Shown piece after piece: positions 1 to 11,821 of a DNA stretch of 11,821 nucleotides. The number at the start of each line of letters is the position of its first letter. Positions within the stretch are counted from its first letter, which is position 1. The DNA is from Ruminococcaceae bacterium UBA4306 (GTDB taxonomy: Bacteria > Bacillota > Clostridia > Oscillospirales > Acutalibacteraceae). The translations under genes were made by a program, and so were the position numbers. The stretch lies in contig DGUQ01000033.1 in the NCBI GenBank assembly GCA_002394725.1, forward strand, positions 1-11,821, given 5' to 3'. The notes beneath the pieces are model-generated. The model did no database searches, was not told the DNA's origin, and saw nothing but the letters and a program-made list of their open reading frames with translations.

Positions 1-1159
1 ACATGCCCTCGCGGTTCTCGCCGGTTTCAATGCCGTCAGCCTCGGCAACATCCGCGACGATACTCTGCGGAATAATACCCAACAGCGCCATCGGGAACGC
101 CGCGATCAGGCAGATCACAACGCCGTATACTACGCCGGGGATCACGGTGGTGCCGATGATACCGATCAGACCCGCGATCACATACGCGAGCGCCAGCCCT
201 AAGAAGCCGCAGATGACGAGCTTCTTCTTGCCGAACTTCTTGACCAGCTTAGAAACAAACGGATAGAAGCAGGCGGACAGCACCGTCATGCCGCCGAGGA
301 AGTACATGGTAAAGCTCTCGTCGAGCTTCATGCTGACCTTGACAAAGAACGGCAGACCCGTCTGGAACAGGGTCAGACCCACCCAGTACATGATGTCGGA
401 GCCGGCAAAGGTGCGGAAGCTCTTGTTCTTGAAGGTCGCGGAGAGCGACTTGAGCATATTGACCTCAGAGGGCTTGGTATCGACAAATTCCTTCTCTTTG
501 AGGGCAAAGGTCGGGATCAGCATGCAGATGCACGAGATGATCGCCAGCACGATAAAGCAGATACGGTAGCTCCACGCGAAGCCGACCGAGCCGCGCAGCA
601 TACCGGCAAAGACAAAGGGCGTATACGCGAGCATCGTGCCGCCGAAGAAGGTCAGCGAGATCGCGGTGGAGATATACATGCGGTCATCCTGCGTCTTGCC
701 GAACTCGGAGATCAGCGCGTTGTACGGCGTACAGTACATGGTCATAAACAGGTAGAACAGCACGATGAAGACCGAGATCCACACGATGTTCCATGAGCTG
801 ATCGCGTTGATCGGCGCGCAGAACAGCAGTACGGTCACCAGCGACAGCGGAATCGCCGCGTACTGCATGAAGGGGATACGTCTGCCGCGCGGATTCTTGC
901 TGCGGTCGGAGAGTGAGGCGATCCACGGATCGGTGACTGCGTCAAAAATACGGGACAGGGCGGTGATCAGACCGAGCACGGTCAAAAAGCCGCCGATGAC
1001 CAGACCGGGCACGATGTACTGGATCGCGCCGTTTTCAATGTCTACCTGTGTGGGCAGGTAAAAGGTGACAAACCACGCGCTGATGATACCGCTGAGCGTC
1101 GACCATCCGAGCTGACCGACAGCGAAGATTCTCATTTGTTTTTTGGTTAATCGTTTCAT
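1..1159 (-). CDS. GPH-family (MelB-like) sugar:cation symporter, 3' end cut by window
   Basis: This is a membrane transporter of the glycoside-pentoside-hexuronide (GPH) branch of the major facilitator superfamily, which couples sugar or glycoside uptake to a cation. The frame is open from an ATG at 1159, preceded by GGAGGA at a good distance, to the window edge, giving 386 residues. Seen in the translation are long hydrophobic segments throughout, the family motif FDAVTDP at residues 72-78 followed by SDR and a Gly-Arg-Arg loop at about 84-94, and near the edge the ETGENREG segment typical of the late cytoplasmic part of GPH proteins. Family members usually have about 450-480 residues, so perhaps 60-90 are missing. 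It lies downstream of the GT-B-like gene on the same strand, with a hairpin element between them. The substrate cannot be inferred. Confidence 0.88.
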   Translation of the reverse strand, partial: MKRLTKKQMRIFAVGQLGWSTLSGIISAWFVTFYLPTQVDIENGAIQYIVPGLVIGGFLTVLGLITALSRIFDAVTDPWIASLSDRSKNPRGRRIPFMQYAAIPLSLVTVLLFCAPINAISSWNIVWISVFIVLFYLFMTMYCTPYNALISEFGKTQDDRMYISTAISLTFFGGTMLAYTPFVFAGMLRGSVGFAWSYRICFIVLAIISCICMLIPTFALKEKEFVDTKPSEVNMLKSLSATFKNKSFRTFAGSDIMYWVGLTLFQTGLPFFVKVSMKLDESFTMYFLGGMTVLSACFYPFVSKLVKKFGKKKLVICGFLGLALAYVIAGLIGIIGTTVIPGVVYGVVICLIAAFPMALLGIIPQSIVADVAEADGIETGENREGM

Positions 1160-1195
1160 GTTGTCCTCCGAAGCTATTGATTTGCATTTGCATAA

Positions 1196-1384
1196 AGCCT
1201 CCCTTTTCTAAGGGAGGTGGCATGGGACGTGTGTCCCATGCCGGAGGGTTGCCATCTGTATAAAGTGCTTTTGCAACCCCCAGTCGCCTTTGGCGACAGC
1301 CCTCCTCAGCGGAGGCAGCAGACCCTTTTGTCCGCTTTGCGGACATTTCCCCTAACAGGGGAATCTCCTTAGGAAAGGGGGCCT
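1196..1384. repeat. MITE-like multi-hairpin intergenic element with terminal inverted repeats
   Basis: The segment begins and ends with imperfect inverted copies of one 18-base sequence (1196-1213 and 1367-1384; about 15 of 18 positions agree, core TTTTCTAAGG/CCTTAGGAAA). Between them lies a string of hairpins: CCTCCCTT/AAGGGAGG (1198-1217), a 10-bp stem GGCATGGGAC/GTCCCATGCC (1219-1242), GGGTTGC/GCAACCC (1246-1279), GTCGCC/GGCGAC (1283-1297), CCTCC/GGAGG (1301-1315), GTCCGC/GCGGAC (1330-1344) and TTCCCCT/AGGGGAA (1347-1363). No open frame of note lies inside. It resembles a small non-autonomous mobile or RNA-folding element. Its right end overlaps the 3' end of the neighbouring coding sequence. 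Whether it is dispersed in the genome is not visible here. Confidence 0.7.
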
Positions 1385-2844
1385 GATTTCTTTGCCATCG
1401 CGAGCTTGACGACCTCATACGCGCCGTTGTACAGCCCTGCGGTCTTGTTCTCTTTGATGCGGTCGCACATGTATTTCAGGGTGTCCTCTTCCTCGAGGAA
1501 CATCTTGACCATCTGTAGGGTATGCGGAATATCCTCGCACTCAAGTGAGCCGTCGCCCATCTCGGCGGAGTGGATCGCGCCCCACTTTTCGTGACCGCCG
1601 ATGCGCTTCAGAAACAGCTTGGGGATGGGGTAGAAGGCGAGCTCACTGGGCTTTGTCAGCAGCACATCCGCCGAACGCATCAAGAGATTGGTGCAGTAGA
1701 CCGCCTCAAAGATGTTCTCGTGCCAGAACGCGTGCACGCCCTCAACGCTGCCGTCGATCGCGTCCTGCGCGAAGCCGTTGGTGTCCGCCCAGTCATTGAA
1801 GTGGGTGGTGCTCACCTCATTAAGGCTCGGGATCTCGCGGCACAGCTCCTCCCATACCGCCTTGTAGTCGCCCACGTTGACATACAGGGCGGCTTTCTTT
1901 GCCTTAACGGCAGGCATTAAGTATTTGATGACAGCCGCGAACAGCTCGCGCTGCGCGCCGGCGCCGCCGATGGTGAGCAGGAACCGCATCGGCTCGCCGT
2001 TCTTCTTGCGCTCAAGCCTTGCGTCACAGTCCTTCTCGATATTCGCGACCAGCTCGTGGTCGATGTAGTGACCGGTATAGACCAGATCCTCTGCCGGCAT
2101 GGGGTTGAGGACTTCCTTTTTCTTAAAGCCGTTGAGGATGCGGTAGCCCATGTAGCTCTGGTGCGTCTGGACGGTGTGGGTCGCGCCCTCGGCGAGGTGC
2201 AGCGCCATCGGCCAGTTATCGGGGATTGCGTTGACCACATGCTCCATGCCTGCGTGCAGCGCTGCCTGAGCCGGCCACACATGGGTGCCGATCAAGGGGA
2301 TGTCCTTGGGAACGCTGTGGAACACCGGCGCCATCAGCTCGGCGTTCTTCTGGTCGGCGGCATTGTAGCTCAGCTGACGGAAGCCCTCGTAGTTCATCGG
2401 CTCCCATACGAGCTTGTTGAACAGGCTGAATTTTTGGCTCAGGCGTGAGCCGAGGCTGTACAGATCGTTCTGCTTGCCGATGACCTTGGTGCAGGTGGTG
2501 TCCTTGTAGGAGTTCAGATCCATCCAGTAGGGCGTGTAGCCCAGCGCCTTGGCGGCGGATGCCATCGCAATCGAGATGCGATAGTGACCGAAGCCCATGC
2601 GGATGTTGCCGACGATGATGCCCTTCTCGGTGTCAAAGGGGATCTCACCCTCGCCCTCGTTTACGCGGATATCATACACGCCTAACGGTTCAAACAGGGT
2701 GGCGTTCTCGACCAGCTTGGCGGAATACGCCGCCTTGCTGTCGTCGCCGAATTGCCTGAGATAGCTCTTCTTTTTTTCGAGCGCTTTTTTATAATCCTTC
2801 GCGCTCATTTGGTTGCCGAAAATGACTTTGCTTCTATCAGCCAT
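1369..2844 (-). CDS. GT-B/GT28-like protein of unknown function
   Basis: The predicted protein has 491 residues and is not one I can name. The start is the ATG at 2844 (MADRSK), chosen because AAGGAGG lies just upstream; the frame could extend nine codons further but without a better site. Three features suggest a glycosyltransferase-like double Rossmann (GT-B) fold as in MurG or MGDG synthase: a Gly-rich loop GNIRMGFGHYR (79-89) at the N-domain, IGGAGAQ (292-298) where GT28 enzymes bind the nucleotide phosphate, and LLTKPSE (395-401) resembling their late acceptor/donor motif. There is no signal peptide or membrane span. The last four residues (GPLS) are encoded inside a repeat element, so the C-terminus may have been rewritten by insertion. 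It precedes a GPH transporter, suggesting carbohydrate or glycolipid metabolism. The fold assignment is inference. Confidence 0.72.
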   Translation of the reverse strand: MADRSKVIFGNQMSAKDYKKALEKKKSYLRQFGDDSKAAYSAKLVENATLFEPLGVYDIRVNEGEGEIPFDTEKGIIVGNIRMGFGHYRISIAMASAAKALGYTPYWMDLNSYKDTTCTKVIGKQNDLYSLGSRLSQKFSLFNKLVWEPMNYEGFRQLSYNAADQKNAELMAPVFHSVPKDIPLIGTHVWPAQAALHAGMEHVVNAIPDNWPMALHLAEGATHTVQTHQSYMGYRILNGFKKKEVLNPMPAEDLVYTGHYIDHELVANIEKDCDARLERKKNGEPMRFLLTIGGAGAQRELFAAVIKYLMPAVKAKKAALYVNVGDYKAVWEELCREIPSLNEVSTTHFNDWADTNGFAQDAIDGSVEGVHAFWHENIFEAVYCTNLLMRSADVLLTKPSELAFYPIPKLFLKRIGGHEKWGAIHSAEMGDGSLECEDIPHTLQMVKMFLEEEDTLKYMCDRIKENKTAGLYNGAYEVVKLAMAKKSGPLS

Positions 2845-2897
2845 AGCGATCCTCCTTACAGAATCTATCACATTTTACTTAGTTAAAGTGATAAAAA

Positions 2898-2913
2898 CTA
2901 ATAGTTGTATTAG
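2898..2913. promoter_or_regulatory. candidate operator palindrome in leader of GT-B-like gene
   Basis: A perfect inverted repeat CTAATA-GTTG-TATTAG lies in AT-rich sequence between the candidate minus-strand promoter (2934-2962) and the start codon of the GT-B-like gene, where a repressor could act as a roadblock. Only its symmetry and location support this. Confidence 0.3.
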
Positions 2914-2933
2914 CTTATTTTTATACATGTTAT

Positions 2934-2962
2934 ATAATATCATAAAGATTGATAAAACGCAA
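2934..2962 (-). promoter_or_regulatory. candidate extended -10 promoter for GT-B-like gene
   Basis: Read on the minus strand, TTGCGT (2962-2957) is followed after 17 bases by TATTAT (2939-2934), and the -10 box is preceded by TGA, which fits the TGn extension. The leader would be about 80 bases long. The -35 match is weak. Confidence 0.4.
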
Positions 2963-3019
2963 TCCGCAGTATGGCAATATTTGAGCCTCTTTTCTATTCA
3001 ACATATACAAAAAGTCAGG

Positions 3020-3116
3020 GAGGAGTTGAGGTGCTGTCCAAATCACGGATTTGGACAACTCCTCATCAGTCCCCCGACACGCGTGTCGGGGGACTGCTCC
3101 CTTTACCAAAGGGAGC
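3020..3116. repeat. tandem hairpin cluster with perfect 30-bp palindrome
   Basis: This gene-free stretch holds three adjacent stem-loops. The first pairs GTCCAAATC (3036-3044) with GATTTGGAC (3048-3056) around a 3-base loop and is extended outward by GAGGAGTT (3020-3027) pairing with AACTCCTC (3057-3064), leaving an 8-base bulge. The second is a perfect 30-base palindrome (3067-3096; each half CAGTCCCCCGACACG or its complement). The third pairs GCTCCCTTT (3096-3104) with AAAGGGAGC (3108-3116) and resembles the first hairpin of the element at 1196-1384. None is followed by a T-run, so they do not look like simple terminators. Confidence 0.65.
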
Positions 3117-3136
3117 CTATGGTAGTGCTATAAACT

Positions 3137-3199
3137 AAATCGGGTGTGGGCAACGCCCACCATTCACTCCTCACTCCTAACTCCTCACTCCTCACTATT
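3137..3199 (+). repeat. heptamer-array plus hairpin module, copy 1
   Basis: The module starts with AAATCGGGT, then a hairpin GTGGGC-AAC-GCCCAC (3146-3160), a CATT linker, and consecutive heptamers CACTCCT, CACTCCT, AACTCCT, CACTCCT and a decayed CACTATT (3165-3199). The first 28 bases match the inverted copy at 6824-6851 in 25 positions. Two of the three differences form a compensatory T-A/C-G pair in the stem. The array ends one base before the -35 box of the bioY promoter. Confidence 0.8.
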
Positions 3200-3200
3200 A

Positions 3201-3229
3201 TTGACTTCCCCTATCAAACGGCGTATAAT
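3201..3229 (+). promoter_or_regulatory. sigma-A-type promoter of bioY operon
   Basis: TTGACT (3201-3206) and a perfect TATAAT (3224-3229) are separated by 17 bases. Transcription would start near 3236, giving a leader of about two dozen bases. I see no BirA-type inverted repeat and no Mn riboswitch in this short leader. Confidence 0.85.
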
Positions 3230-3258
3230 ACATTCAGTTCAACGGAAAGAGGGATATT

Positions 3259-3813
3259 ATGTCGGCAAACACCCATGACAACAAAAAAGCTCCCACAGCG
3301 GTCAAGGATCTGGTCTTTACCGCTATGTTCACCGCGCTGATCGCGGTTTGCTCCATCATCAGCATCCCCATCGGCGAGGTGCCCGTCACCCTCCAGACCT
3401 TCGCGATCTGCCTTGCCGCCGCCATGCTCGGCGTCAAACGCGGCACGCTCAGCGTATTGATCTATATCCTGCTCGGCGCGGTCGGCGTACCTGTATTCGC
3501 GGGAATGTCGGGCGGTATCGGTATCCTTGCCGGTCCTACGGGCGGTTATATCATCGGCTTTATCTTGACGGCGCTCGTCGTCGGCTTTGCGGCGGATCAT
3601 TGGAAGCGCAAGGCGCTGCCGCTTACGATCGCCATGGCAGTCGGCGTACTGCTGTGCTATGCGGTCGGCACCGTTTGGTTCATGGTCGTGACCAAAATGA
3701 ACCTCGGCGAATCGCTGCTGCTGTGTGTGGTGCCGTTCCTGATCCCTGACGCGGTGAAGATCGCGCTCGCGGTGATCCTCTCCAACCGCCTCTCGAAGGT
3801 CGTCACCCTGTGA
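3259..3813 (+). CDS. bioY: Biotin transporter BioY (ECF S component)
   Basis: BioY is the biotin-binding integral membrane component that works alone or with a shared ECF energizing module (EcfA/A'/T) to import biotin. The 184-residue length is typical of the family. After a short polar N-terminus come about six hydrophobic segments; the sequence around residues 40-47 (EVPVTLQT, before FAICLAAAMLG) and the Gly-rich stretch around residues 75-97 (containing GAVGVPVFAG and GPTGGY) are characteristic of BioY. The ATG follows GGAAAGAGGG at a suitable distance, and a strong promoter lies just upstream. It is the first gene of an operon with DUF1284 and mntP; its TGA stop overlaps the next GTG start. 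No energizing genes are in the window, so an unlinked ECF module is assumed. Confidence 0.95.
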   Translation: MSANTHDNKKAPTAVKDLVFTAMFTALIAVCSIISIPIGEVPVTLQTFAICLAAAMLGVKRGTLSVLIYILLGAVGVPVFAGMSGGIGILAGPTGGYIIGFILTALVVGFAADHWKRKALPLTIAMAVGVLLCYAVGTVWFMVVTKMNLGESLLLCVVPFLIPDAVKIALAVILSNRLSKVVTL

Positions 3814-4196
3814 ACGATCCGTTTCTGCTCCGCCCCCATCACGCGCTGTGTATCCGCTTCTTTGAGGGCAAGGGCTACAGTGAAGCGTTCATCCGCCATA
3901 TGACCGCGGTCATCGAGACGTTACAGCGTGACGATCCCTCGATCACCCTCTGTGAAGGCTGTGATATCCTGTGTGATCAATGTCCGCACAACAAAGGCGG
4001 CGTCTGCGATCATGACGAAAGGGTACGTGGGATCGATGAAAGGGCGCTGGAAATGATGGAGCTTTCTACCGGCACTGTCCTTTCATGGCATGAATTATAT
4101 ATCCGCGCATATGATAGTATCATCAAAACAGGCAGGCTCAAAGAGGTCTGCCGCGACTGTCAGTGGCTCAGTATTTGTCACAAGAAAAGCGAGTGA
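3810..4196 (+). CDS. DUF1284 family Cys-rich protein
   Basis: This 128-residue soluble protein matches DUF1284 by its opening LLRPHHALC (6-14) and following GKGYS (20-24). Function is unknown. It holds nine cysteines, most in pairs: C48-x2-C51, C55-x2-C58, C66 and C114-x2-C117 with C123, plus C14 next to H10/H11. The spacing looks suited to binding metal or an Fe-S cluster (inference). The start is GTG at 3810, overlapping the bioY stop as GTGA, which indicates translational coupling; the next in-frame Met (residue 31) would remove the conserved RPHH segment. mntP begins only seven bases after its stop, so the three genes are surely co-transcribed. There are no membrane spans. Confidence 0.88.
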   Translation: MNDPFLLRPHHALCIRFFEGKGYSEAFIRHMTAVIETLQRDDPSITLCEGCDILCDQCPHNKGGVCDHDERVRGIDERALEMMELSTGTVLSWHELYIRAYDSIIKTGRLKEVCRDCQWLSICHKKSE

Positions 4197-4203
4197 TGAT
4201 CTA

Positions 4204-4776
4204 ATGTGGCTGTTTCTCTTCAACTCCATATTACTCGGCGTCGGGCTGGCGATGGACGCCTTCTCGGTATCGATCGCCAACGGCATGAGCGAACCGCATA
4301 TGCGGCGGCTCAAATGCGTCGGCGTGGCAGGGGCTTACAGTGTGTTTCAGTTTTTGATGCCGATGCTCGGCTGGGTGCTGGTCACTGCACTGATGGGCTG
4401 GTTCCGCGTGATCGAGCGCTTTGTGCCGTATATCGCGCTCATACTCCTTCTGTTTATCGGGATCAAAATGATCGTTGAATCTTTGCGTGGGGGAGAGGAA
4501 CAGCAAACGCGCCGACTGACTGTCCCGATCCTGCTGATGCAGGCGGTCGCCACCAGCATCGACGCATTGTCGGTGGGCTTTACCCTTGCCGCTTATGAGC
4601 TGCCCTCGGCGCTCACGGCGTCCCTGATCATCGGCGCGGTCACCTTTGTGATATGCCTGCTCGGGCTGTGGATCGGCAAGCGCTTCGGCAGTGTGTTCAA
4701 GCACGCCGAGGTCGTCGGCGGTATCATCCTGATCCTGATCGGGATCGAGATTTTTGTCAAAAACGTTTTCTTCTGA
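4204..4776 (+). CDS. mntP: Manganese efflux pump MntP
   Basis: MntP exports Mn2+ from the cytoplasm and protects against manganese excess. The 190-residue protein has six hydrophobic segments, as expected. The two internally repeated helices carry the family motifs with membrane aspartates: LAMDAFSVSIANG (D18) and SIDALSVGF (D120). The start is the ATG at 4204, because the hydrophobic N-terminus begins there (MWLFLF); a longer frame running back into DUF1284 is not supported. Only a weak purine-rich stretch (AAGAAAAGCGAG) serves as ribosome binding site, so translation is probably coupled to DUF1284. mntP is often controlled by a yybP-ykoY Mn riboswitch, but I see none here; expression appears to follow the bioY promoter. 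A hairpin terminator follows the stop. Confidence 0.94.
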   Translation: MWLFLFNSILLGVGLAMDAFSVSIANGMSEPHMRRLKCVGVAGAYSVFQFLMPMLGWVLVTALMGWFRVIERFVPYIALILLLFIGIKMIVESLRGGEEQQTRRLTVPILLMQAVATSIDALSVGFTLAAYELPSALTASLIIGAVTFVICLLGLWIGKRFGSVFKHAEVVGGIILILIGIEIFVKNVFF

Positions 4777-4779
4777 TAC

Positions 4780-4804
4780 GGGGGCTCTGCGGAGTCCCTT
4801 TTGC
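4780..4804 (+). terminator. Rho-independent terminator of bioY-DUF1284-mntP operon
   Basis: GGGGCTC (4781-4787) pairs with GGAGTCCC (4791-4798), including one or two G-T pairs, around a short loop, and runs into TTTT just after the mntP stop. The T-run is short. Confidence 0.65.
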
Positions 4805-4898
4805 ATAGGGTGACAGGAATAATCCGAACCGTGGTTTTGACGGGCATATTTCCGCCTGCCCATTGTTAAAATCCTCGCGAACCCGTCAGGTATATATG

Positions 4899-4928
4899 TT
4901 GACAATGCCGACTGTTATGTGATAGAAT
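4899..4928 (+). promoter_or_regulatory. promoter of surface-polymer operon
   Basis: A perfect TTGACA (4899-4904) and TAGAAT (4923-4928) are 18 bases apart, and TGA directly before the -10 box provides the TGn extension. The leader would be about 45-50 bases long, ending in AAGGAAAGGA before the cytidylyltransferase start at 4982. Confidence 0.75.
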
Positions 4929-4981
4929 AACCATGTATAACTATGCCCTTTGCATATTGAGATAAGGAAAGGAACAATACT

Positions 4982-5722
4982 ATGATTACTGCGATGTTAT
5001 TTGCAGGCGGTAAAGGCGCGAGGATGAAATCCGTCGATCTGCCCAAGCAGTTTTTAGAGGTGGGCGGCAAGCCCATCATCATCCACACCATGGAGCATTT
5101 TGCGCACCATCCGATGGTCGACCATATTGTGGTCGCCTGTAAGGAGGACTGGATCGATCACCTCGAGGGGCTGATCGAGAAGTTCAACGTGCAAAAGGTC
5201 AAGTCCATCGTCCCCGGCGGCGCTACCGGCTTTGATTCCATCCATAACGGCGTTGTCGCGACGCACGAGTTCTCACGCGATCCCGAGGATATCATCCTGA
5301 TCTGCGACGGCGTGCGCCCGATGCTCTCCGAGCAGCTGATCACCAACTGTATCTTAGAGACCAAAAAGCACAAAACCGCCGTACCCGTCACCCCGTCTAT
5401 CGACAGCCTGCTCTATTCCGAGGACGGCAAGACCTGCGGCAAAAGCTACCAACGCTCGACCATGTACATCACCCAGGCGCCTCAGGGCTACACCATGGAG
5501 CGCATCCTCTGGGCGCATGATCAGGCGTACAAGCGCGGTATCTTAGAGCCGGTTTCCTCCAGCGAGCTGTTCATCGAGCTGGGCGAAAAGGTACATATCT
5601 TCATCGGCGAGCGCTTTAATATCAAGGTCACGACCCCCGAGGATCTGACCACCCTGCGCTCTCAGTATTACTATGAGAATTACAAGAAATTCGCCAAGGA
5701 GGAATTGAAGTATGGCTTATAA
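4982..5722 (+). CDS. TarI/IspD-family cytidylyltransferase
   Basis: This 246-residue enzyme belongs to the IspD/TarI nucleotidyltransferases, which use CTP to activate a polyol- or sugar-phosphate as a CDP-linked donor. The CTP loop is seen as FAGGKGARM (7-15) with R14, followed by LPKQF (20-24) with K22; the C-terminal NIKVTTPEDL (213-222) is the family's late motif. LPKQFL followed by KPIIIHTMEHF resembles ribitol-phosphate TarI more than IspD. Substrate-side motifs differ from both: CDGVRP (108-113) replaces HDAARP/HDAVRP, the usual Arg in the GG-x-x-R segment is replaced (GGATGFDS), and SSE stands where IspD has TDD. The acceptor is therefore probably not methylerythritol phosphate and may not be ribitol phosphate. 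It is first in an operon with an SDR and a LicD protein, consistent with surface glycan decoration. Confidence 0.85.
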   Translation: MITAMLFAGGKGARMKSVDLPKQFLEVGGKPIIIHTMEHFAHHPMVDHIVVACKEDWIDHLEGLIEKFNVQKVKSIVPGGATGFDSIHNGVVATHEFSRDPEDIILICDGVRPMLSEQLITNCILETKKHKTAVPVTPSIDSLLYSEDGKTCGKSYQRSTMYITQAPQGYTMERILWAHDQAYKRGILEPVSSSELFIELGEKVHIFIGERFNIKVTTPEDLTTLRSQYYYENYKKFAKEELKYGL

Positions 5723-6785
5723 GGTAAAGGACTATGTTAAAAAGAGTATCTATACCAACTTAGAGGATATCGCGAACGCTCCCATCTCATGGGACAAGCT
5801 GAAGAACAAGACCCTGCTCCTCACCGGAGCCGGCGGCTTCATCGGCTACTACATGACCTGCGGTATCCTCTTGAGAAACGACCTCTACGGCGACAATATC
5901 AAGGTATTGGCGCTCGAGCGCTTCGGCGATTTCGCGAAGAAGAAGTTCGGCAAGTTACTTGAGCGTGACGACGTCGAGCTGATCGTGCAGGATATTACCG
6001 AGCCCATCGAGGCGGAGCGCGCGGATTTTGTCATCCACGCGGCTTCTCAGGCAAGCGCCATCGAATTCGAGCGCGACCCCGTCGGCACTATCAGCGCCAA
6101 CCTCAGCGGTACGGAAAACGCGCTGAACTACGCGAAGAAAAGCGGAAGCGAAGCGTCGCTGATCGTTTCCTCGTTAAAGGTCTACGGTACGCTGTATACC
6201 GGCAAGCCGTTTATCGAGGAGGACGACAACGGCTATGTCGACTTTACTTCTTATAAAAACTGCTATGCCATCGGCAAGCGTGCTGCCGAGACCTTAGCCG
6301 CGAGCTACTCAAAGCAGTATGATATGAACATCCGCATCGTCCGTCCGTCTTACATCTTCGGCGCGAGCCGTCTGGACGACGACCGCGTGTGGGCGCAGTT
6401 CATCGCGAACATCGTCCGCGGACAGGATATCTTACTCAAGAGCAACGGAGCGACCAACCGCTCCTTCTGCTATGTCACCGACACTGTGACCGCCATGCTG
6501 CACGTCCTGCTCGACGGCGAGAATTGTGTGCCGTATAATATCTCGAACGAGAAATCCAACACCACCATCCGCGGCTTTGCGCAGGCGGCGTGCGAGGTGT
6601 TCCCCGAGCGTCATATGAAGCTCGCGTTCGCCAATCCCGAGGATGAAGTGATGCCTGAGCCTTCGCCGCTCGATCCCACCCCCGAGATCATGGACAACAA
6701 GCGCATCCGCTCCATCGGCTGGGAGCCGAAGATCGACCTCAAAGAGGGCATCCGCCGCGCGGTCGCGATCTTAGAGGAAGAATAA
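5712..6785 (+). CDS. NAD-dependent epimerase/dehydratase (extended SDR)
   Basis: A 357-residue extended short-chain dehydrogenase/reductase, the family of nucleotide-sugar epimerases, 4,6-dehydratases and decarboxylases. The NAD-binding loop TGAGGFIG lies at 38-45, the catalytic region has SSLKVYG (153-159) and YAIGK (Y185, K189), and VRPSYIFG is the usual substrate-domain strand; the active site looks intact. The length is normal. The ATG lies 11 bases inside the preceding gene, with AAGGAGGAA upstream, so the two are translationally coupled; a CDP-activated intermediate from TarI-like activity is a reasonable substrate guess. The next gene begins with a degenerate homologue of this protein: both have the D/E-LK-x-KT lead into the nucleotide loop and a matching end around IGW/LGW. 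The exact reaction cannot be assigned. Confidence 0.88.
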   Translation: MAYKVKDYVKKSIYTNLEDIANAPISWDKLKNKTLLLTGAGGFIGYYMTCGILLRNDLYGDNIKVLALERFGDFAKKKFGKLLERDDVELIVQDITEPIEAERADFVIHAASQASAIEFERDPVGTISANLSGTENALNYAKKSGSEASLIVSSLKVYGTLYTGKPFIEEDDNGYVDFTSYKNCYAIGKRAAETLAASYSKQYDMNIRIVRPSYIFGASRLDDDRVWAQFIANIVRGQDILLKSNGATNRSFCYVTDTVTAMLHVLLDGENCVPYNISNEKSNTTIRGFAQAACEVFPERHMKLAFANPEDEVMPEPSPLDPTPEIMDNKRIRSIGWEPKIDLKEGIRRAVAILEEE

Positions 6786-6795
6786 AATTTTAGTT

Positions 6796-6947
6796 AGGAG
6801 TTAGGAGTTAGGAATTAGGAGTTAATGGCGGGCTTTGCCCGCACCCGATTTGTATGGAGTCGCCGTCTTTCGTTGGTTTTTCAAACACATACAAATACAA
6901 AACGCGAAGCGTTTCCCGAAACTCCTCACTCCTCACTCCTCACTTTT
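6796..6947. repeat. symmetrical inverted-repeat element: heptamers-hairpin-core-hairpin-heptamers
   Basis: Left arm: four heptamers AGGAGTT/AGGAATT (6796-6823), then hairpin GCGGGC-TTT-GCCCGC (6828-6842), then ATTTGTATG (6848-6856). Right arm in mirror order: CATACAAAT (6888-6896, exact complement), hairpin AAACGC-GAA-GCGTTT (6900-6914), CCCGA, and four heptamers AACTCCT, CACTCCT, CACTCCT, CACTTTT (6920-6947). The core is about 31 bases. The left arm is an inverted copy of the module at 3137-3199. The element lies between two operon genes and ends five bases before the ribosome binding site of the SDR-LicD gene, so it is transcribed and could form a large cruciform-like RNA fold. Confidence 0.82.
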
Positions 6948-6961
6948 CATTTGGAGGACCT

Positions 6962-8782
6962 ATGCCTCTTAAAAACAAACTCAACCAATATGAGCTGGAT
7001 ATGGTGCTTGCCGTTTTGCGCGACAAGCACCTGCCGCTCAATGAACTCAAACAAAAAACCGTAGCGGTCTCGGGCGGCGGCGATCTGCACCGCGCGATCC
7101 TCTACAGTTTGTTATATCTGAATGAAACAAAAGCCCTCGATATGCAGGTGATCAGCGTAGGGGAGAGGTTCCCGACCCTCTACGAGGATGACGGCTTCCG
7201 CGTCAAGGAGCCCGACGAGCTCGGCGCGGTCGATTACTATATCGAAGTGGGCTTTTTGCGCTATGCAGGCTGTGATGATACGGCGTTTTCCGATTGTATC
7301 GGCAGGGCGATGCGCGTGATCGCTGCCTTATCCAAGGCGCAGGTCGGCAGGGTGCTCCTGCTGTCATCGACAGCCGTCTACGGCACACCCGACAAGGAGA
7401 TGTCTCTTGCCGAAAACGAGTATGCCGACCCGGGCTTTGCGCTCAACAACGCGACCGCGATCATGCTCCAATGTGTGGAGAATATCTTCTCCGGAGCGGC
7501 ACACATGCACGGCTTTGCCGTGACGACACTGCGCTGCGCGGCATTGCTCGCTCCCTTTGCGGAGTTGGAGGCGACGGAAAAGCTCTTACAGCCGCTCTCA
7601 CAAAAGCAAACGCTCACCTTCGCTTCACACGGCAGGAAAACCACGCTCGTATCCATCAACGACCTGCTCACCGCACTGTATTACGGGCTGTTGCTCTGTG
7701 ACGCAGGTGGCGTGTACAACGTCGGCGGCGACGACAGCGATCTGTCTCCCTTGATGCTCGCCGCCGTGACAGAGGAGCTGTTCGGCGTCGATGTGAGCAT
7801 CGCGGAGGACGGCGTCCGGCTGCATGGCTGCGCCGTGAATTGCGACAAGCTCAAGCAGCTCGGCTGGACACCCCTTGTGGGCGCCAAGGACGCGTTTTTG
7901 ATCGCAAAGAACGCCTATGACGGCTCCGATCGGGTGTTCATGTTCAGCGATTCCTACGACGGCAAGCTCAGCGCGGTACAGCAGACCCTGCTCGGCTTCC
8001 TCAAAGAGGTCGACCGCATTTGCCGCAAGAACAATATCAAGTATTTCTTAGGCGGCGGCACCCTGCTTGGCGCGGTACGTCACAAGGGCTTTATCCCGTG
8101 GGACGACGACGCGGATGTGATGATGCTCCGCGACGATTACGAAAGGTTCCTCAGTGTGCTGAAAACCGACCTGCCGCCCTATATCACCGACCAGAATACC
8201 GAACAGGCGAATCACTTCGCGTTCACCAAGCTCAGGCTCAACGATACCATTCTTTCCACCGAGTTCTCCGCGCGCTTCAAGGGCTTGCATAACGGCGTGT
8301 TCTTAGATGTGTTAGCACAGGATAAAACATCCAATAAAAAAGCGGCAAGCCGCCTGCACATGAAAATGACCGCTCAATTGCGCTGGCTCGTGCTCAACAA
8401 ATGGCGCGGCACGCCGATGAACGCGAACAACAAGCTCGTTTCCTTTATCGGTGACGTTATCAAGGCGATCCTGCCTTTGTCGCTCCTCGAAAAAATGCAG
8501 AACGGCATCATGAAGCGTTACCGCCATAAAGACACCGGCATGCTGTACGACAGCATGGGGCGCAACGTCGAGCGCGGCGCTTTCCCCGAGGAATGGCTCA
8601 AGGAAGCGGTCTATGTCGATTTTGAGGACACCAAGCTCCCCATTCCCAAGGAATGGGATCGATATCTGACCTACCTCTACGGCGATTATATGGACATGAT
8701 CCCTGTGTCCGAGCGCCATGTCAGCCACGATATCGTGCGCATCGATCTGGGGCGCTTCATCGATTACGGAGACAAAGCATGA
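6962..8782 (+). CDS. Fusion protein: degenerate SDR domain plus LicD phosphotransferase domain
   Basis: A 606-residue two-domain protein. Residues about 30-330 form an extended-SDR domain related to the preceding gene: SSTAVYG is kept (135-141) and the fold-typical IND and LGW segments are present. The nucleotide loop, however, has become SGGGDLH (37-43), and the catalytic Tyr and Lys are replaced by Thr and Leu in NATAIML, so it is probably inactive. Residues about 334-606 form a LicD domain with the hallmark GTLLGAVRHKGFIPWDDD (366-383), followed by AD and VMM; LicD proteins transfer phosphocholine or other phospho-alditol groups from CDP donors to cell-surface glycans. The start is the ATG at 6962, preceded by GGAGG; the longer frame upstream is repeat sequence. 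There is no signal peptide. The fusion suggests the dead SDR domain positions a nucleotide-linked donor (inference). Confidence 0.88.
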   Translation: MPLKNKLNQYELDMVLAVLRDKHLPLNELKQKTVAVSGGGDLHRAILYSLLYLNETKALDMQVISVGERFPTLYEDDGFRVKEPDELGAVDYYIEVGFLRYAGCDDTAFSDCIGRAMRVIAALSKAQVGRVLLLSSTAVYGTPDKEMSLAENEYADPGFALNNATAIMLQCVENIFSGAAHMHGFAVTTLRCAALLAPFAELEATEKLLQPLSQKQTLTFASHGRKTTLVSINDLLTALYYGLLLCDAGGVYNVGGDDSDLSPLMLAAVTEELFGVDVSIAEDGVRLHGCAVNCDKLKQLGWTPLVGAKDAFLIAKNAYDGSDRVFMFSDSYDGKLSAVQQTLLGFLKEVDRICRKNNIKYFLGGGTLLGAVRHKGFIPWDDDADVMMLRDDYERFLSVLKTDLPPYITDQNTEQANHFAFTKLRLNDTILSTEFSARFKGLHNGVFLDVLAQDKTSNKKAASRLHMKMTAQLRWLVLNKWRGTPMNANNKLVSFIGDVIKAILPLSLLEKMQNGIMKRYRHKDTGMLYDSMGRNVERGAFPEEWLKEAVYVDFEDTKLPIPKEWDRYLTYLYGDYMDMIPVSERHVSHDIVRIDLGRFIDYGDKA

Positions 8783-9216
8783 AACGAATTCTATTGATCT
8801 TGACGGCGGCGGTATGTATCGCGTTATGCGGCTGTGCCGCGCAGAATCGGACTGCTTCCGGTATGACGGCTCCGTCCGTGACAACGCGGGAGAACGCCTC
8901 CTATACGCAGATTGATTCAGCAGAAGCGGCACGCCTGATGCAAACCGAAAAGGATTATATCCTCCTCGATGTTCGCACTGAGGAGGAATTCAAATCGGGT
9001 CATATCCCGAACGCGGTCTGCATCCCCAATGAGTCCATCACCGACAAGGAGCCTTCCGAGCTGCCCGATAAGGATCAGTTGATCCTCGTCTATTGCCGCA
9101 GCGGCAGACGCAGTAAGGAAGCGGCGCAAAAGCTCGCCGACCTCGGTTATACCAACGTAAGGGAGTTCGGCGGCATCATCGACTGGACAGGCGAGACCGT
9201 CACCGGGTCCGAATAA
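8779..9216 (+). CDS. Rhodanese-domain lipoprotein
   Basis: A 145-residue predicted lipoprotein: Lys/Arg start, hydrophobic segment, and lipobox LCGC with lipidated Cys19, then a polar linker of about 20 residues. Residues about 42-143 form one rhodanese domain with LLDVRTEEEF (62-71), GHIPNA (74-79), and the active loop CRSGRRS starting at Cys106, so sulfur transfer or a thiol-redox role outside the membrane is possible; the actual substrate is unknown. The ATG overlaps the LicD stop as ATGA, indicating translational coupling; a longer frame upstream is inside the LicD gene and lacks the signal peptide start. Its link with LicD may be functional, or it may simply ride in the operon. The length is ordinary for a single-domain rhodanese with a signal. 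Confidence 0.9.
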   Translation: MKRILLILTAAVCIALCGCAAQNRTASGMTAPSVTTRENASYTQIDSAEAARLMQTEKDYILLDVRTEEEFKSGHIPNAVCIPNESITDKEPSELPDKDQLILVYCRSGRRSKEAAQKLADLGYTNVREFGGIIDWTGETVTGSE

Positions 9217-9232
9217 CAGAAAGGTATTTGAC

Positions 9233-9931
9233 ATGAAAAAACATTTGATCCCGATCATTTTGATACTCGCGCTGCTGACAGGGCTTTGCCTGACGGCGTG
9301 CGGCAATAAAGATAACGGCGCTGCGCCCGATTCGGCTTCTGCCGATCAAAGCGCGACCGCCGATTCCCGAGAGACATCCTCCGCGGCAGCTCAAGCGGCG
9401 TCATCCGCCAACAAGGATGATGCCGATGACAAGAGCGAGGCTCCGGCGTCCTCCAAAGCCTCTGGCGCGGACGCGGCTGCTCCTCAGCAGGAAAACGCGC
9501 AGAACAACGATGATAATGCTGTTGAGGAGGAAAATGCTCCTGCACCCGAAAAGCAGGAGCAAAGCACGCCGAAGAAGAGCTCGGGCAATACTCCTGCCTC
9601 TTCCGTATCGCCGAACCCTGCTTATGACGACGACCATCGTCCGCAGTTTACGATCGTGATGACCGACAAATCGAGCAAAAAGGAATACTCCGCCGCCTGC
9701 AGTTACACCACGGATAAGGAGAATGAAGCCTACGCTTCCTTCTTCCTGCCTGCCGGTAACTACGATATCGCGGTGTATGAGTACGCCGACAAAATCGACA
9801 AGGATCATCCGCTCGCGGAATCCGCCTATCATAACGACAACGCGACCAAGCGCAAGTCGATCCGCGTCTATTACACCCCCAAGGATAACAAGATCGAGGT
9901 CAAAGAGAGCGCTTCGAGCAGAACACAGTAA
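9233..9931 (+). CDS. Lipoprotein of unknown function with low-complexity linker
   Basis: A 232-residue predicted lipoprotein that I do not recognise. It has a signal peptide (MKKH, hydrophobic core) and lipobox LTAC with Cys23. Residues about 25-134 are a disordered-looking linker rich in Ala, Ser, Asp, Glu, Lys and Pro with no obvious exact repeat. Residues about 135-225 look like a small beta-rich domain, with alternating hydrophobic strands such as FTIVMTD, YASFFLPAGNYDIAVYEY and SIRVYYTPK. The layout fits a membrane-anchored domain held away through the cell wall. The start has AGAAAGG upstream and lies 16 bases after the rhodanese stop. It is the last gene before a hairpin terminator. 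A role in binding or supporting the surface polymer made by the operon is only a guess. Confidence 0.85.
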   Translation: MKKHLIPIILILALLTGLCLTACGNKDNGAAPDSASADQSATADSRETSSAAAQAASSANKDDADDKSEAPASSKASGADAAAPQQENAQNNDDNAVEEENAPAPEKQEQSTPKKSSGNTPASSVSPNPAYDDDHRPQFTIVMTDKSSKKEYSAACSYTTDKENEAYASFFLPAGNYDIAVYEYADKIDKDHPLAESAYHNDNATKRKSIRVYYTPKDNKIEVKESASSRTQ

Positions 9932-9952
9932 AAAAAGAATCAGCATACAAAA

Positions 9953-9975
9953 AGGGCTTCCACAGCGGAAGCCCT
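9953..9975. terminator. bidirectional terminator between convergent operons
   Basis: AGGGCTTCC (9953-9961) pairs with GGAAGCCCT (9967-9975), a perfect 9-bp stem with a 5-base loop. On the minus strand it is followed by TTTTT, making it a strong terminator for the SDR gene; on the plus strand the tail is TAACTTTA, so it is weaker for the lipoprotein operon. Confidence 0.82.
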
Positions 9976-9988
9976 AACTTTATGCGGT

Positions 9989-10789
9989 TCATTTTGCGTA
10001 GATCTTACCTACGATGTAGTTCGAGAGCCGGCGCGGTAACAGCTTGGTCAGCACCGCGACCGCCTTGTAGGAGAAGCCGATCGCCTTGAGCGGACGCGAG
10101 TTCTTTTTGATCGCCAGCTTCGCGATATATTCGCCTGCCTTTTGGGGACTCATGCCGCCGCGTTCATCCTTTTCCATCACGGCGACGGAGCGGCGCACGC
10201 GTTCGCTGTAGGCGCTGTTATCACAGTCGTCCTTCTGCCTTGCGTCGGTGAAGCCCGTGGCAATATCGCCCGGCAGTACCGCGCACACGGTGATCCCGTA
10301 GGGACGGAGCTCGTTTTGCAGTGCCAGCACATATGCCGCGATCGCCGCCTTGCTCACGCTGTACCATAGCTGGAACGGGATCGGCAGGATGCCGGCGATC
10401 GAACTGACGCAGACGATCCGTCCGCGCTTTCTCTCACGCATATGGGGCAGTACGGCACGGATGACGTTGTCCGTACCGAACAGGTTGAGCTCCAACTGCG
10501 CGTGTGCATCGGCGGAGCGCGTCATCTCGGCAGCGCCCGAGATCCCGTAGCCTGCGTTGCTGATCAGGATATCGATCTGCCCCTCGTGCGTGATGATCTC
10601 CCCGATCGCCTTATTCACCTGTTCTTCATCGGTGACGTCGGCAGAGAGGTGCCGCACGCCGTAGGGTGGGTTATCGCGGCGTGACAGCTCGTAGACGGTG
10701 CAGCCCTGCTTTGACAGGCTCAGCGCTGTTTCTCTGCCGATACCGCTGCTGCCGCCCGTGACGACGGCAACTCGTTTTTCGTTACTCAT
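9989..10789 (-). CDS. Classical SDR oxidoreductase, possible 3-ketosphinganine-type reductase
   Basis: A 266-residue classical short-chain dehydrogenase/reductase. It has TGGSSGIG (11-18), NAG (78-80), catalytic N102, S130, Y143 and K147 (YSVSK), so it should be active. Arg37-Arg38 right after the second strand suggest NADPH preference. A basic, hydrophobic C-terminus (about 235-266) could touch the membrane, as in sphingoid-base and retinol-type SDRs. The ATG lies inside the end of the upstream alpha-oxoamine synthase gene, an 8-base overlap, with AAGGTG upstream. In sphingolipid synthesis a reductase of this type (KDSR) reduces the 3-keto product of serine palmitoyltransferase; the pairing here makes that role attractive. 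Sequence alone cannot exclude another keto-lipid or alcohol substrate. A terminator follows. Confidence 0.86.
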   Translation of the reverse strand: MSNEKRVAVVTGGSSGIGRETALSLSKQGCTVYELSRRDNPPYGVRHLSADVTDEEQVNKAIGEIITHEGQIDILISNAGYGISGAAEMTRSADAHAQLELNLFGTDNVIRAVLPHMRERKRGRIVCVSSIAGILPIPFQLWYSVSKAAIAAYVLALQNELRPYGITVCAVLPGDIATGFTDARQKDDCDNSAYSERVRRSVAVMEKDERGGMSPQKAGEYIAKLAIKKNSRPLKAIGFSYKAVAVLTKLLPRRLSNYIVGKIYAK

Positions 10790-11821
10790 TGCTCAACAGC
10801 ACCTTCGCGATGATGTGAACTGCCTCGTCGATCAGCTCCTCTGTCAGCGTCGCCATGTAGCTGGTGCGCAACAGGCACTCGTTCGGAGCAGTCGCAGGGG
10901 GCAGGACGGGGTTGACATATACGCCTGCTTCATAGACCTCCTTCGCCTTGATCAGGGTGTTTTCCATCGTGTAGGTGTAGATGGGCACGATCGGCGTTTC
11001 GCTCTCGCGGATCTTCAGTCCTGCGTCACGCAGACCCTTGCGCGCGTGAGCGGACAGGGCATTGAGCTTTTCGGGCAGCTCGGGGTGCGCCTTGAGGTGC
11101 CTGAGTGCGGCAAGCGCTACCGCGCAGCATGCCGGAGGGATCGACGCCGAGAAGATGAACGGGCGCGAGTTGTGGCGCACATAGTCGCACACCGTGTGTG
11201 ACGCCGCCATGTAGCCGCCTAAGGAGGCTAAGGATTTCGAGAAGGTGCCCATGATGATGTCTACCTTGTCCTCGAGCCCGAAGTAGCTTTCGGTACCTCT
11301 GCCGCCCTCACCGATCACGCCTAAGCCATGCGCGTCGTCTACCATGACGCGCGCGCCGTATTGCTCGGCGAGTTGACAGATCTCGGGCAGCTTGGCGATA
11401 TCGCCGCCCATCGAGAACACGCCGTCGGTGACGATCAGCACACCAGCGGTCTCGGGGATCTTCTTGAGGATCTTTTCGAGATCCTCCATATCGTTATGCT
11501 TGTAGCGCAGCATCTTGCCGAAGCTGAGCTGACAGCCGTCATAGATGGACGCGTGATTCTCACGGTCGCAGACGACATAGTCATTCCTGCCGACGATCGC
11601 GCTGATGATACCCAGATTGCTCTGGAAGCCGGTCGAGAAGGTGACCGACTCCTCCTTGTTGACAAAGGCGGCAAGCTCACTTTCGAGCTCGAGGTGCATG
11701 TTCAGCGTACCGTTGAGGAATCGAGAGCCCGAGCATCCGGAGCCGTATTTTTCCAGCGCCTTGATACCTGCCTCCACCACGGTCGGCTCGGTGGTCAGAC
11801 CCAGATAGTTGTTGGAGCCCA
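10782..11821 (-). CDS. Alpha-oxoamine synthase, serine palmitoyltransferase-like, 5' end cut by window
   Basis: A PLP-dependent condensing enzyme joining an amino acid to an acyl thioester with loss of CO2. The frame runs into the window edge: 345 residues are visible, beginning with SNNYLGL, and about 45-50 N-terminal residues should lie outside (family about 390-400). The GTG at 11780 is internal, not the start. Motifs seen are GSGCSGSRFLNGT (substrate loop), HASIYDG, the PLP-binding DDAHGLG, and GTFSKSLASLGG with the Schiff-base lysine (codon 11235-11237). TFSKS and the SRFLNGT form recall Bacteroidetes-type serine palmitoyltransferase rather than E. coli KBL (GTLGKA) or BioF (VTFGKG). It overlaps an SDR gene by eight bases. 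Alternatives are a cysteate-using enzyme of sulfonolipid synthesis or a KBL-like enzyme. The family is certain; the substrate is inferred. Confidence 0.85.
   Translation of the reverse strand, partial: GSNNYLGLTTEPTVVEAGIKALEKYGSGCSGSRFLNGTLNMHLELESELAAFVNKEESVTFSTGFQSNLGIISAIVGRNDYVVCDRENHASIYDGCQLSFGKMLRYKHNDMEDLEKILKKIPETAGVLIVTDGVFSMGGDIAKLPEICQLAEQYGARVMVDDAHGLGVIGEGGRGTESYFGLEDKVDIIMGTFSKSLASLGGYMAASHTVCDYVRHNSRPFIFSASIPPACCAVALAALRHLKAHPELPEKLNALSAHARKGLRDAGLKIRESETPIVPIYTYTMENTLIKAKEVYEAGVYVNPVLPPATAPNECLLRTSYMATLTEELIDEAVHIIAKVLLSNE

Follow-up and report, generated by a model that had tools for sequence, protein, structure and literature searches.

We analyzed a window of 11,821 nucleotides from Ruminococcaceae bacterium UBA4306 (GenBank assembly GCA_002394725.1, contig DGUQ01000033.1, positions 1 to 11,821), in which a gene for an alpha-oxoamine synthase (AOS) of the serine palmitoyltransferase (SPT) clade overlaps the gene of a short-chain dehydrogenase/reductase (SDR). 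We consider it probable that the pair is a bicistronic unit that makes long-chain bases, by way of 3-ketosphinganine to sphinganine, with the steps past sphinganine left unassigned. The AOS, holding pyridoxal phosphate (PLP) on a lysine and presumably acting as a homodimer, would join L-serine to a long-chain acyl-CoA or acyl-ACP in a condensation that releases CO2 and gives 3-ketosphinganine, which the SDR would reduce with NADPH to sphinganine. We infer serine as the amino acid, the chain length, the acyl carrier, the direction of the reduction and the product of the pathway; the reading draws on the gene pair, its residues, tree position, predicted fold and co-occurrence across genomes. The sphinganine might later be N-acylated, receive a headgroup or remain a free amino lipid, and genes for such steps are not conserved beside the pair. 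Sphingolipids are membrane lipids familiar above all from Bacteroides and animals, and those of the gut are mostly credited to Bacteroidota; a sphingoid-base operon distributed among clostridia of gut and rumen, if true, would be an overlooked Gram-positive source. A defined two-gene pair makes this question directly testable.

The AOS matched a solved SPT at an E value of 1.7e-113, far beyond chance, and its translation contains both TFSKS and SRFLNGT, the motifs from which an initial annotation of the window had recognized an SPT-like enzyme. In trees, a check which that annotation had proposed against KBL and BioF, the AOS falls in a clostridial clade within the SPT clade and outside the KBL, BioF and ALAS branches. 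The trees included no SulA sequence. Support for grouping with SPTs, away from KBL, BioF and ALAS, was 98/96, and 100/99 in a second tree with an approximately unbiased (AU) test. Any deep branching order is tentative, since a tree that joins clade A, which holds the window's gene, to Bacteroidota SPT and leaves a second clade, B, outside was not rejected (p-AU 0.204). The catalytic residues Asn, His, Asp, His, Lys and Arg are all kept, though these are common to most AOS rather than specific to SPT.

A further marker is the position of Lys281 in SulA, a residue that separates SulA from SPT, which has alanine there (PMC9304779). Alanine occupies it in 105/105 clade A rows (102 distinct), 10/10 clade B rows, the Sphingobacterium SPT, 3/3 further SPT-like plasmid proteins and 4/4 SPT reference rows, the last being three Bacteroidales and one Roseomonas sequence taken as SPT but not themselves assayed. 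Elsewhere it is threonine in 9/10 other Firmicutes AOS (alanine in 1/10), asparagine in KBL, and threonine in 3/3 BioF rows and in ALAS. Since two of four unclassed AOS likewise have alanine, this residue by itself is no proof of an SPT. The serine-aldimine residues of SmSPT (Asn52, Ser81, Thr241 and Lys244) are kept in all 105 clade A rows, while the position of its Ala79, close to the substrate side chain, is serine in 103 of them. Serine would be the predicted amino acid substrate of the AOS.

The partner matched Pfam adh_short at an E value of 5.2e-44, again far beyond chance. It has the TGGSSGIG motif, an N-S-Y-K set formed by Asn102, Ser130, Tyr143 and Lys147, and an NADPH-type Arg-Arg at 37-38, as the initial annotation had described for a classical SDR with an intact catalytic set. 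Its best NCBIfam model was the 3-ketodihydrosphingosine reductase, KdsR, at 235 bits, followed by a runner-up at 200; the next SDRs in the same genome scored 104 and 73 with the KdsR model. KdsR was also the best model for four more SDRs of clade A, each encoded downstream of SPT (215-226 bits), and for an SDR on the opposite strand, 2.4 kb from SPT, in locus L071 (269 bits); these scores, like that of the window SDR, all lie below the cut-off of 400. The solved structure nearest to the SDR model (pLDDT 92) was 3m1a, whose entry names a putative dehydrogenase, and the next were mostly 17-beta-hydroxysteroid dehydrogenases. The SDR is likely a 3-ketosphinganine reductase.

To describe linkage we used 80 named loci, the best 80 of 577 confirmed stretches. 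An SDR lies directly downstream of the AOS on the same strand in 55/80, the arrangement is otherwise in 23/80, and 2/80 are cut by a contig end. Among the 23 genomes with an unlinked SPT, an SDR match was found elsewhere in 21 at E <= 1e-25 and in 18 at E <= 1e-40, two of these 18 bearing one in-frame stop. Of 60 genomes sampled from the window's genus, 12 had SPT; the SDR was present in exactly these 12, and the remaining 48 lacked both (E <= 1e-40); the SDR search took in 40 further genomes, seven of them positive, which stand outside the SPT count. A 398-genome sample of the phylum gave an SPT-clade match in 20 genomes (19 full-length at 534-571 bits and the window copy at 483, with the next match at 430), and an SDR at E <= 1e-30 was present in 19/20 of these versus 21/378 others (Fisher p 1.9e-20, ignoring relatedness). 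The lone SPT-positive genome missing from this count, G487, has a convergent SDR of 31% identity beside its SPT, and in clade B the SDR is convergent with SPT within 160 bases in 8/10 loci. The tandem genes of clade A, the convergent ones of clade B and the unlinked genomes together indicate that SPT and SDR are paired in either of two arrangements, and mostly also where the genes lie apart. Mirror-tree correlation between AOS and SDR was modest (Spearman 0.38 over 53 loci), with 0/999 permutations as high.

Several observations weigh against a sphingoid-base pathway. Two of the 23 unlinked SPT genomes had no SDR match at 1e-25 and three had weak ones, although metagenome-assembled genomes (MAGs) may be incomplete, and the genome counts are not phylogenetically independent. 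The curated 640-bit cut-off of NCBIfam NF047600 (SerpalmtaseCFB) was missed by the truncated window copy and passed by 0/398 phylum genomes, the full-length SPT-clade matches included, so the AOS is not filed under that equivalog. No SDR scored reached the 400-bit cut-off of the KdsR equivalog NF049977. Two clade B SDRs (214-216 bits) and a Prevotella SDR (223), the top plasmid-collection match of the window SDR, had similar KdsR scores and fit general oxidoreductase models better, so scores of this size are unspecific. Further steps were sought in a Pfam scan of 109 same-strand open frames (two each side, up to 900 aa, 68 loci), drawn from 244 chosen, of which the rest were opposite-strand or longer. 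Of the upstream genes that the initial annotation had listed to look for, acyl carrier protein was not found, a motif search (60-130 aa, 80 loci) returning two open frames, neither ACP-like; an acyl ligase domain occurred in 1/109 neighbours. No ceramide synthase recurred among the 109. PF04339, which we take to be the family of the Caulobacter ceramide synthase, was found in 0/60 genus genomes, while Caulobacter and Synechococcus controls matched. Finally, the Sphingobacterium SPT takes alanine, glycine and homoserine as well as serine (PMC10196870), so the amino acid cannot be read from the sequence.

That breadth is the starting point for one alternative, in which the substrates of the AOS are a long acyl chain and alanine, glycine or homoserine, and reduction of the resulting ketone by the SDR gives 1-deoxysphinganine-type bases. 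1-Deoxysphingolipids are reported from the euxinic Black Sea (PMC11334938), and the serine at the SmSPT Ala79 position would suit a different substrate, but the serine-aldimine residues kept throughout clade A speak for serine, and we consider this alternative unlikely. The same chemistry might instead yield a non-membrane product, an aminoketone or amino alcohol of small or medium chain length acting as a signal or natural product. Signals are made by relatives of the AOS such as CqsA, the patchy spread of 12/60 genus genomes suits an accessory product, and no lipid genes recur beside the pair. However, tree and score put the AOS with long-chain SPTs and, as a weaker point, the SDR fold near 17-beta-hydroxysteroid dehydrogenases implies a large apolar ligand, which makes such a product quite improbable.

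The initial annotation had also allowed for capnine. For sulfonolipid synthesis, the AOS would have to act as SulA, a cysteate acyltransferase, with the SDR reducing 3-ketocapnine; SulA-type enzymes are indeed related to the AOS (222 bits), and Cys, cfat and kcr homologues are reported at a loose cut-off in Firmicutes_A genomes too (PMC11211663). SulA structures nevertheless rank below SPT and KBL, and the SulA marker Lys281 (PMC9304779) is replaced by alanine in every one of the 115 rows from clades A and B, so that we regard this as very improbable. Of the two options, the first two steps of sphingoid-base synthesis are backed by the trees, residues and co-occurrence of the pair, while capnine synthesis lacks support, the marker position being alanine in 105/105 clade A rows. 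An ordinary BioF or KBL, in biotin or threonine/glycine metabolism, is equally hard to credit. The BioF and glycine C-acetyltransferase NCBIfam models match the AOS at 361 bits and a BioY gene lies within the window, but the AOS stands outside these branches, its diagnostic residue differs, and its partner is an adh_short SDR rather than a threonine dehydrogenase or biotin synthesis gene, so that the refuting conditions named in the initial annotation for tree and neighbours do not apply; bioB was over the cut-off in 0/12 SPT-positive genomes.

The coordinates of the pair and associated features are given in Table 1; the open frame of the AOS spans 10782-11819 and stays open at the end of the window. 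The AOS stop codon sits just within the SDR reading frame, and the shared bases, ATGAGTAA, bear out the 8-base overlap annotated initially, through which we infer translational coupling. The hairpin with a T run lies 13 bases past the SDR stop codon (consensus scan only) and suggests a two-gene transcript ending there. The contig extends past the window to 15012; the window stops inside the AOS gene at a 74-base N run (contig 11822-11895), beyond which the AOS N-terminus (MDIFEKCERFT...) was found, followed by a divergent acyl-ACP thioesterase gene and a FliB-like gene. The source genome is assembled in 207 contigs totalling 2.18 Mb, with a completeness of 79%. GC content of the pair (0.59-0.60) is near that of its neighbours (0.52-0.60), giving no sign of recent import, and Rfam and tRNA scans of the window returned no match.

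Table 1. Positions in the window of the AOS-SDR pair and associated features
Feature	Positions	Strand	Basis
SPT-clade AOS (PLP), C-terminal 345 residues, runs off window end	10782..11821	-	
Classical SDR, likely 3-ketosphinganine reductase, 266 aa	9989..10789	-	open frame and profile match
Codon of PLP-binding lysine in TFSKS of AOS	11235..11237	-	alignment
AOS alanine codon (Lys281 in SulA, Asn in KBL row, Thr in BioF/ALAS rows)	11145..11147	-	alignment
AOS stop / SDR start overlap, 8 bases, ATGAGTAA	10782..10789	-	
YxxxK catalytic motif codons of SDR	10349..10363	-	
Terminator-like hairpin and T run	9953..9975	-	consensus scan; 0.2 expected in shuffles

Neighbouring open frames with a minimum length of 90 aa were clustered across 99 loci, a set in which some loci share their source. 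The most frequent cluster is the SDR; further large clusters either run antisense to the AOS or SDR gene or are common to genus members, and one same-strand cluster of 6 loci is a MarR regulator. In 7/80 loci (L019, L051, L053, L057, L059, L069 and L081) a MarR-family gene immediately precedes the AOS in the same orientation, 26-100 bases away or overlapping it, and in an eighth it is 2.4 kb off; all seven have the SDR downstream, and Pfam named MarR in 6/109 neighbours. In other Firmicutes, acyl-ACP is sensed by MarR-type proteins such as FabT, and lipid-sensing control of the pair is possible. Besides MarR, nothing occurred in more than three of the 109 scanned neighbours, among the 25 of 91 families listed. 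An AMP-binding enzyme and a FakA-like protein were single cases and DegV was found in two; an MBOAT gene in L071 was one further case. No bCerS- or CerR-type neighbour recurred on these short contigs, with epimerase-type domains in 2/109, and nothing was common to more than four loci among the neighbours of SPT in the 23 unlinked loci or of 17 unlinked SDRs.

The acyl-ACP thioesterase divergent from the pair lies just beyond the window (L106:3248-3964, contig 12247-12963). A close match (E <= 1e-100) was found in 8/12 SPT-positive versus 0/48 SPT-negative genus genomes, adjacent to SPT in six of the eight; in G004 the distance is 8 kb, and G035 has the two on different contigs. As these eight genomes are the closest-SPT subgroup (89-100% identity), shared ancestry explains the link as well. 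Within the window, positions 4982-8782 encode an IspD-like cytidylyltransferase, an NAD epimerase and a protein in which an epimerase is fused to LicD. This module may serve to make cell-surface phosphodiesters; it was rejected as an SPT partner, the IspD-like match being present in 37/60 genus genomes, SPT-negative ones included. The BioY biotin transporter (3259-3813) lies 6 kb from the pair. With no bioB over the cut-off, BioY points to biotin uptake and suggests that the SPT-positive genomes may be biotin auxotrophs. Positions 1369-2871 encode a protein with complete DUF6937 and DUF6938 domains.

The named relatives are MAGs of uncultured Ruminococcus, Oscillospiraceae, Lachnospiraceae and Clostridiales, many from ruminant guts. 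Three clade loci are labelled otherwise (L046 Spirochaetaceae, L078 Sutterella and L082 Kiritimatiellae), with labels unchecked for misbinning. The presence of SPT in 12/60 genus genomes points to repeated loss or transfer among clostridia. Bacteroidales SPT genes are 50-52% identical to L083, a full-length clostridial relative with a 97% identical AOS; given this identity and the clostridia's own clade, a recent jump from Bacteroides is unlikely, and lateral transfer between gut phyla, as the initial annotation had suggested, is not supported as a recent Bacteroidetes import (51-52% identity, separate clostridial clade). A tentative further step, on which we remain doubtful, is that several uncultured gut and rumen clostridial lineages possess an old SPT-SDR pathway of their own for sphingoid bases, controlled in some by a MarR-type regulator that may sense acyl groups. 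The known bacterial ceramide synthase would have no part in it, and the membranes would contain free long-chain bases or ceramides from an as yet unassigned N-acyltransferase.

Related genes were also seen on plasmids. An SPT-like AOS of Bacilli on a Priestia megaterium plasmid (L159, 5989-7203) is 48% identical to L083 and falls in the SPT clade, with an acyltransferase and a methyltransferase nearby. On a Rubrobacter plasmid (L165, 1899-5146), genes for a GNAT protein and then an HpnA-like reductase using NAD(P) come after that of an SPT-like AOS, a gene set that resembles a ceramide cassette, in a Gram-positive. A Bacteroides plasmid typed conjugative (L153, 3911-5146), and similar plasmids, carry a separate AOS ahead of a TetR regulator, with 36% identity and alanine at the SPT position.

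Detection of bacterial sphingolipids has been described as largely limited to Bacteroidota and certain alpha-Proteobacteria (PMC10191378). Spt-like proteins are reported from 38 Black Sea phyla, 40 in all, and the main text of that paper does not name Firmicutes or Bacillota, although the 38 may include them (PMC11334938); kcr homologues occur, at a loose cut-off, in 12.3% of Firmicutes_A genomes (PMC11211663). In the literature searched on Gram-positives and clostridia, with subscription papers and supplements outside its scope, we found no report of clostridia-made sphingolipids and no description of a tight two-gene SPT-SDR unit in clostridia.

Among known systems, the Bacteroidota SPTs (Sphingobacterium 3a2b and 8guh; Bacteroides finegoldii L152, which we take to be the known Bacteroides SPT locus) share with the AOS the fold, catalytic residues, SPT alanine, about 50% identity and the tree clade, whereas the clostridial AOS has its own clade and overlaps a dedicated SDR gene. 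In the stretches fetched around Bacteroides, Parabacteroides and Prevotella SPT, no open frame matched the clostridial SDR at E <= 1e-5. The Bacteroides 3-ketosphinganine reductase BT_0972 (PMC9278070) is likewise a classical SDR with YxxxK, an NADPH glycine motif and the same proposed reaction; by description only, the clostridial SDR differs in being encoded beside SPT and in scoring below the NCBIfam KdsR threshold. SulA, the cysteate acyl-ACP transferase of Alistipes (PMC9304779), is alike in AOS fold and chemistry, but the clostridial clade has alanine in place of Lys281. The Caulobacter-type Spt-bCerS-CerR ceramide pathway (PMC11087976, PMC11334938) would share its first step with the clostridial pair, beside which no neighbours of the bCerS or CerR type were found to recur on the short contigs, in contrast to the Rubrobacter plasmid. 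As SPT-like genes have been reported from about 40 phyla, the pair would be a clostridial form of the SPT and 3-ketosphinganine reductase pathway rather than a new kind.
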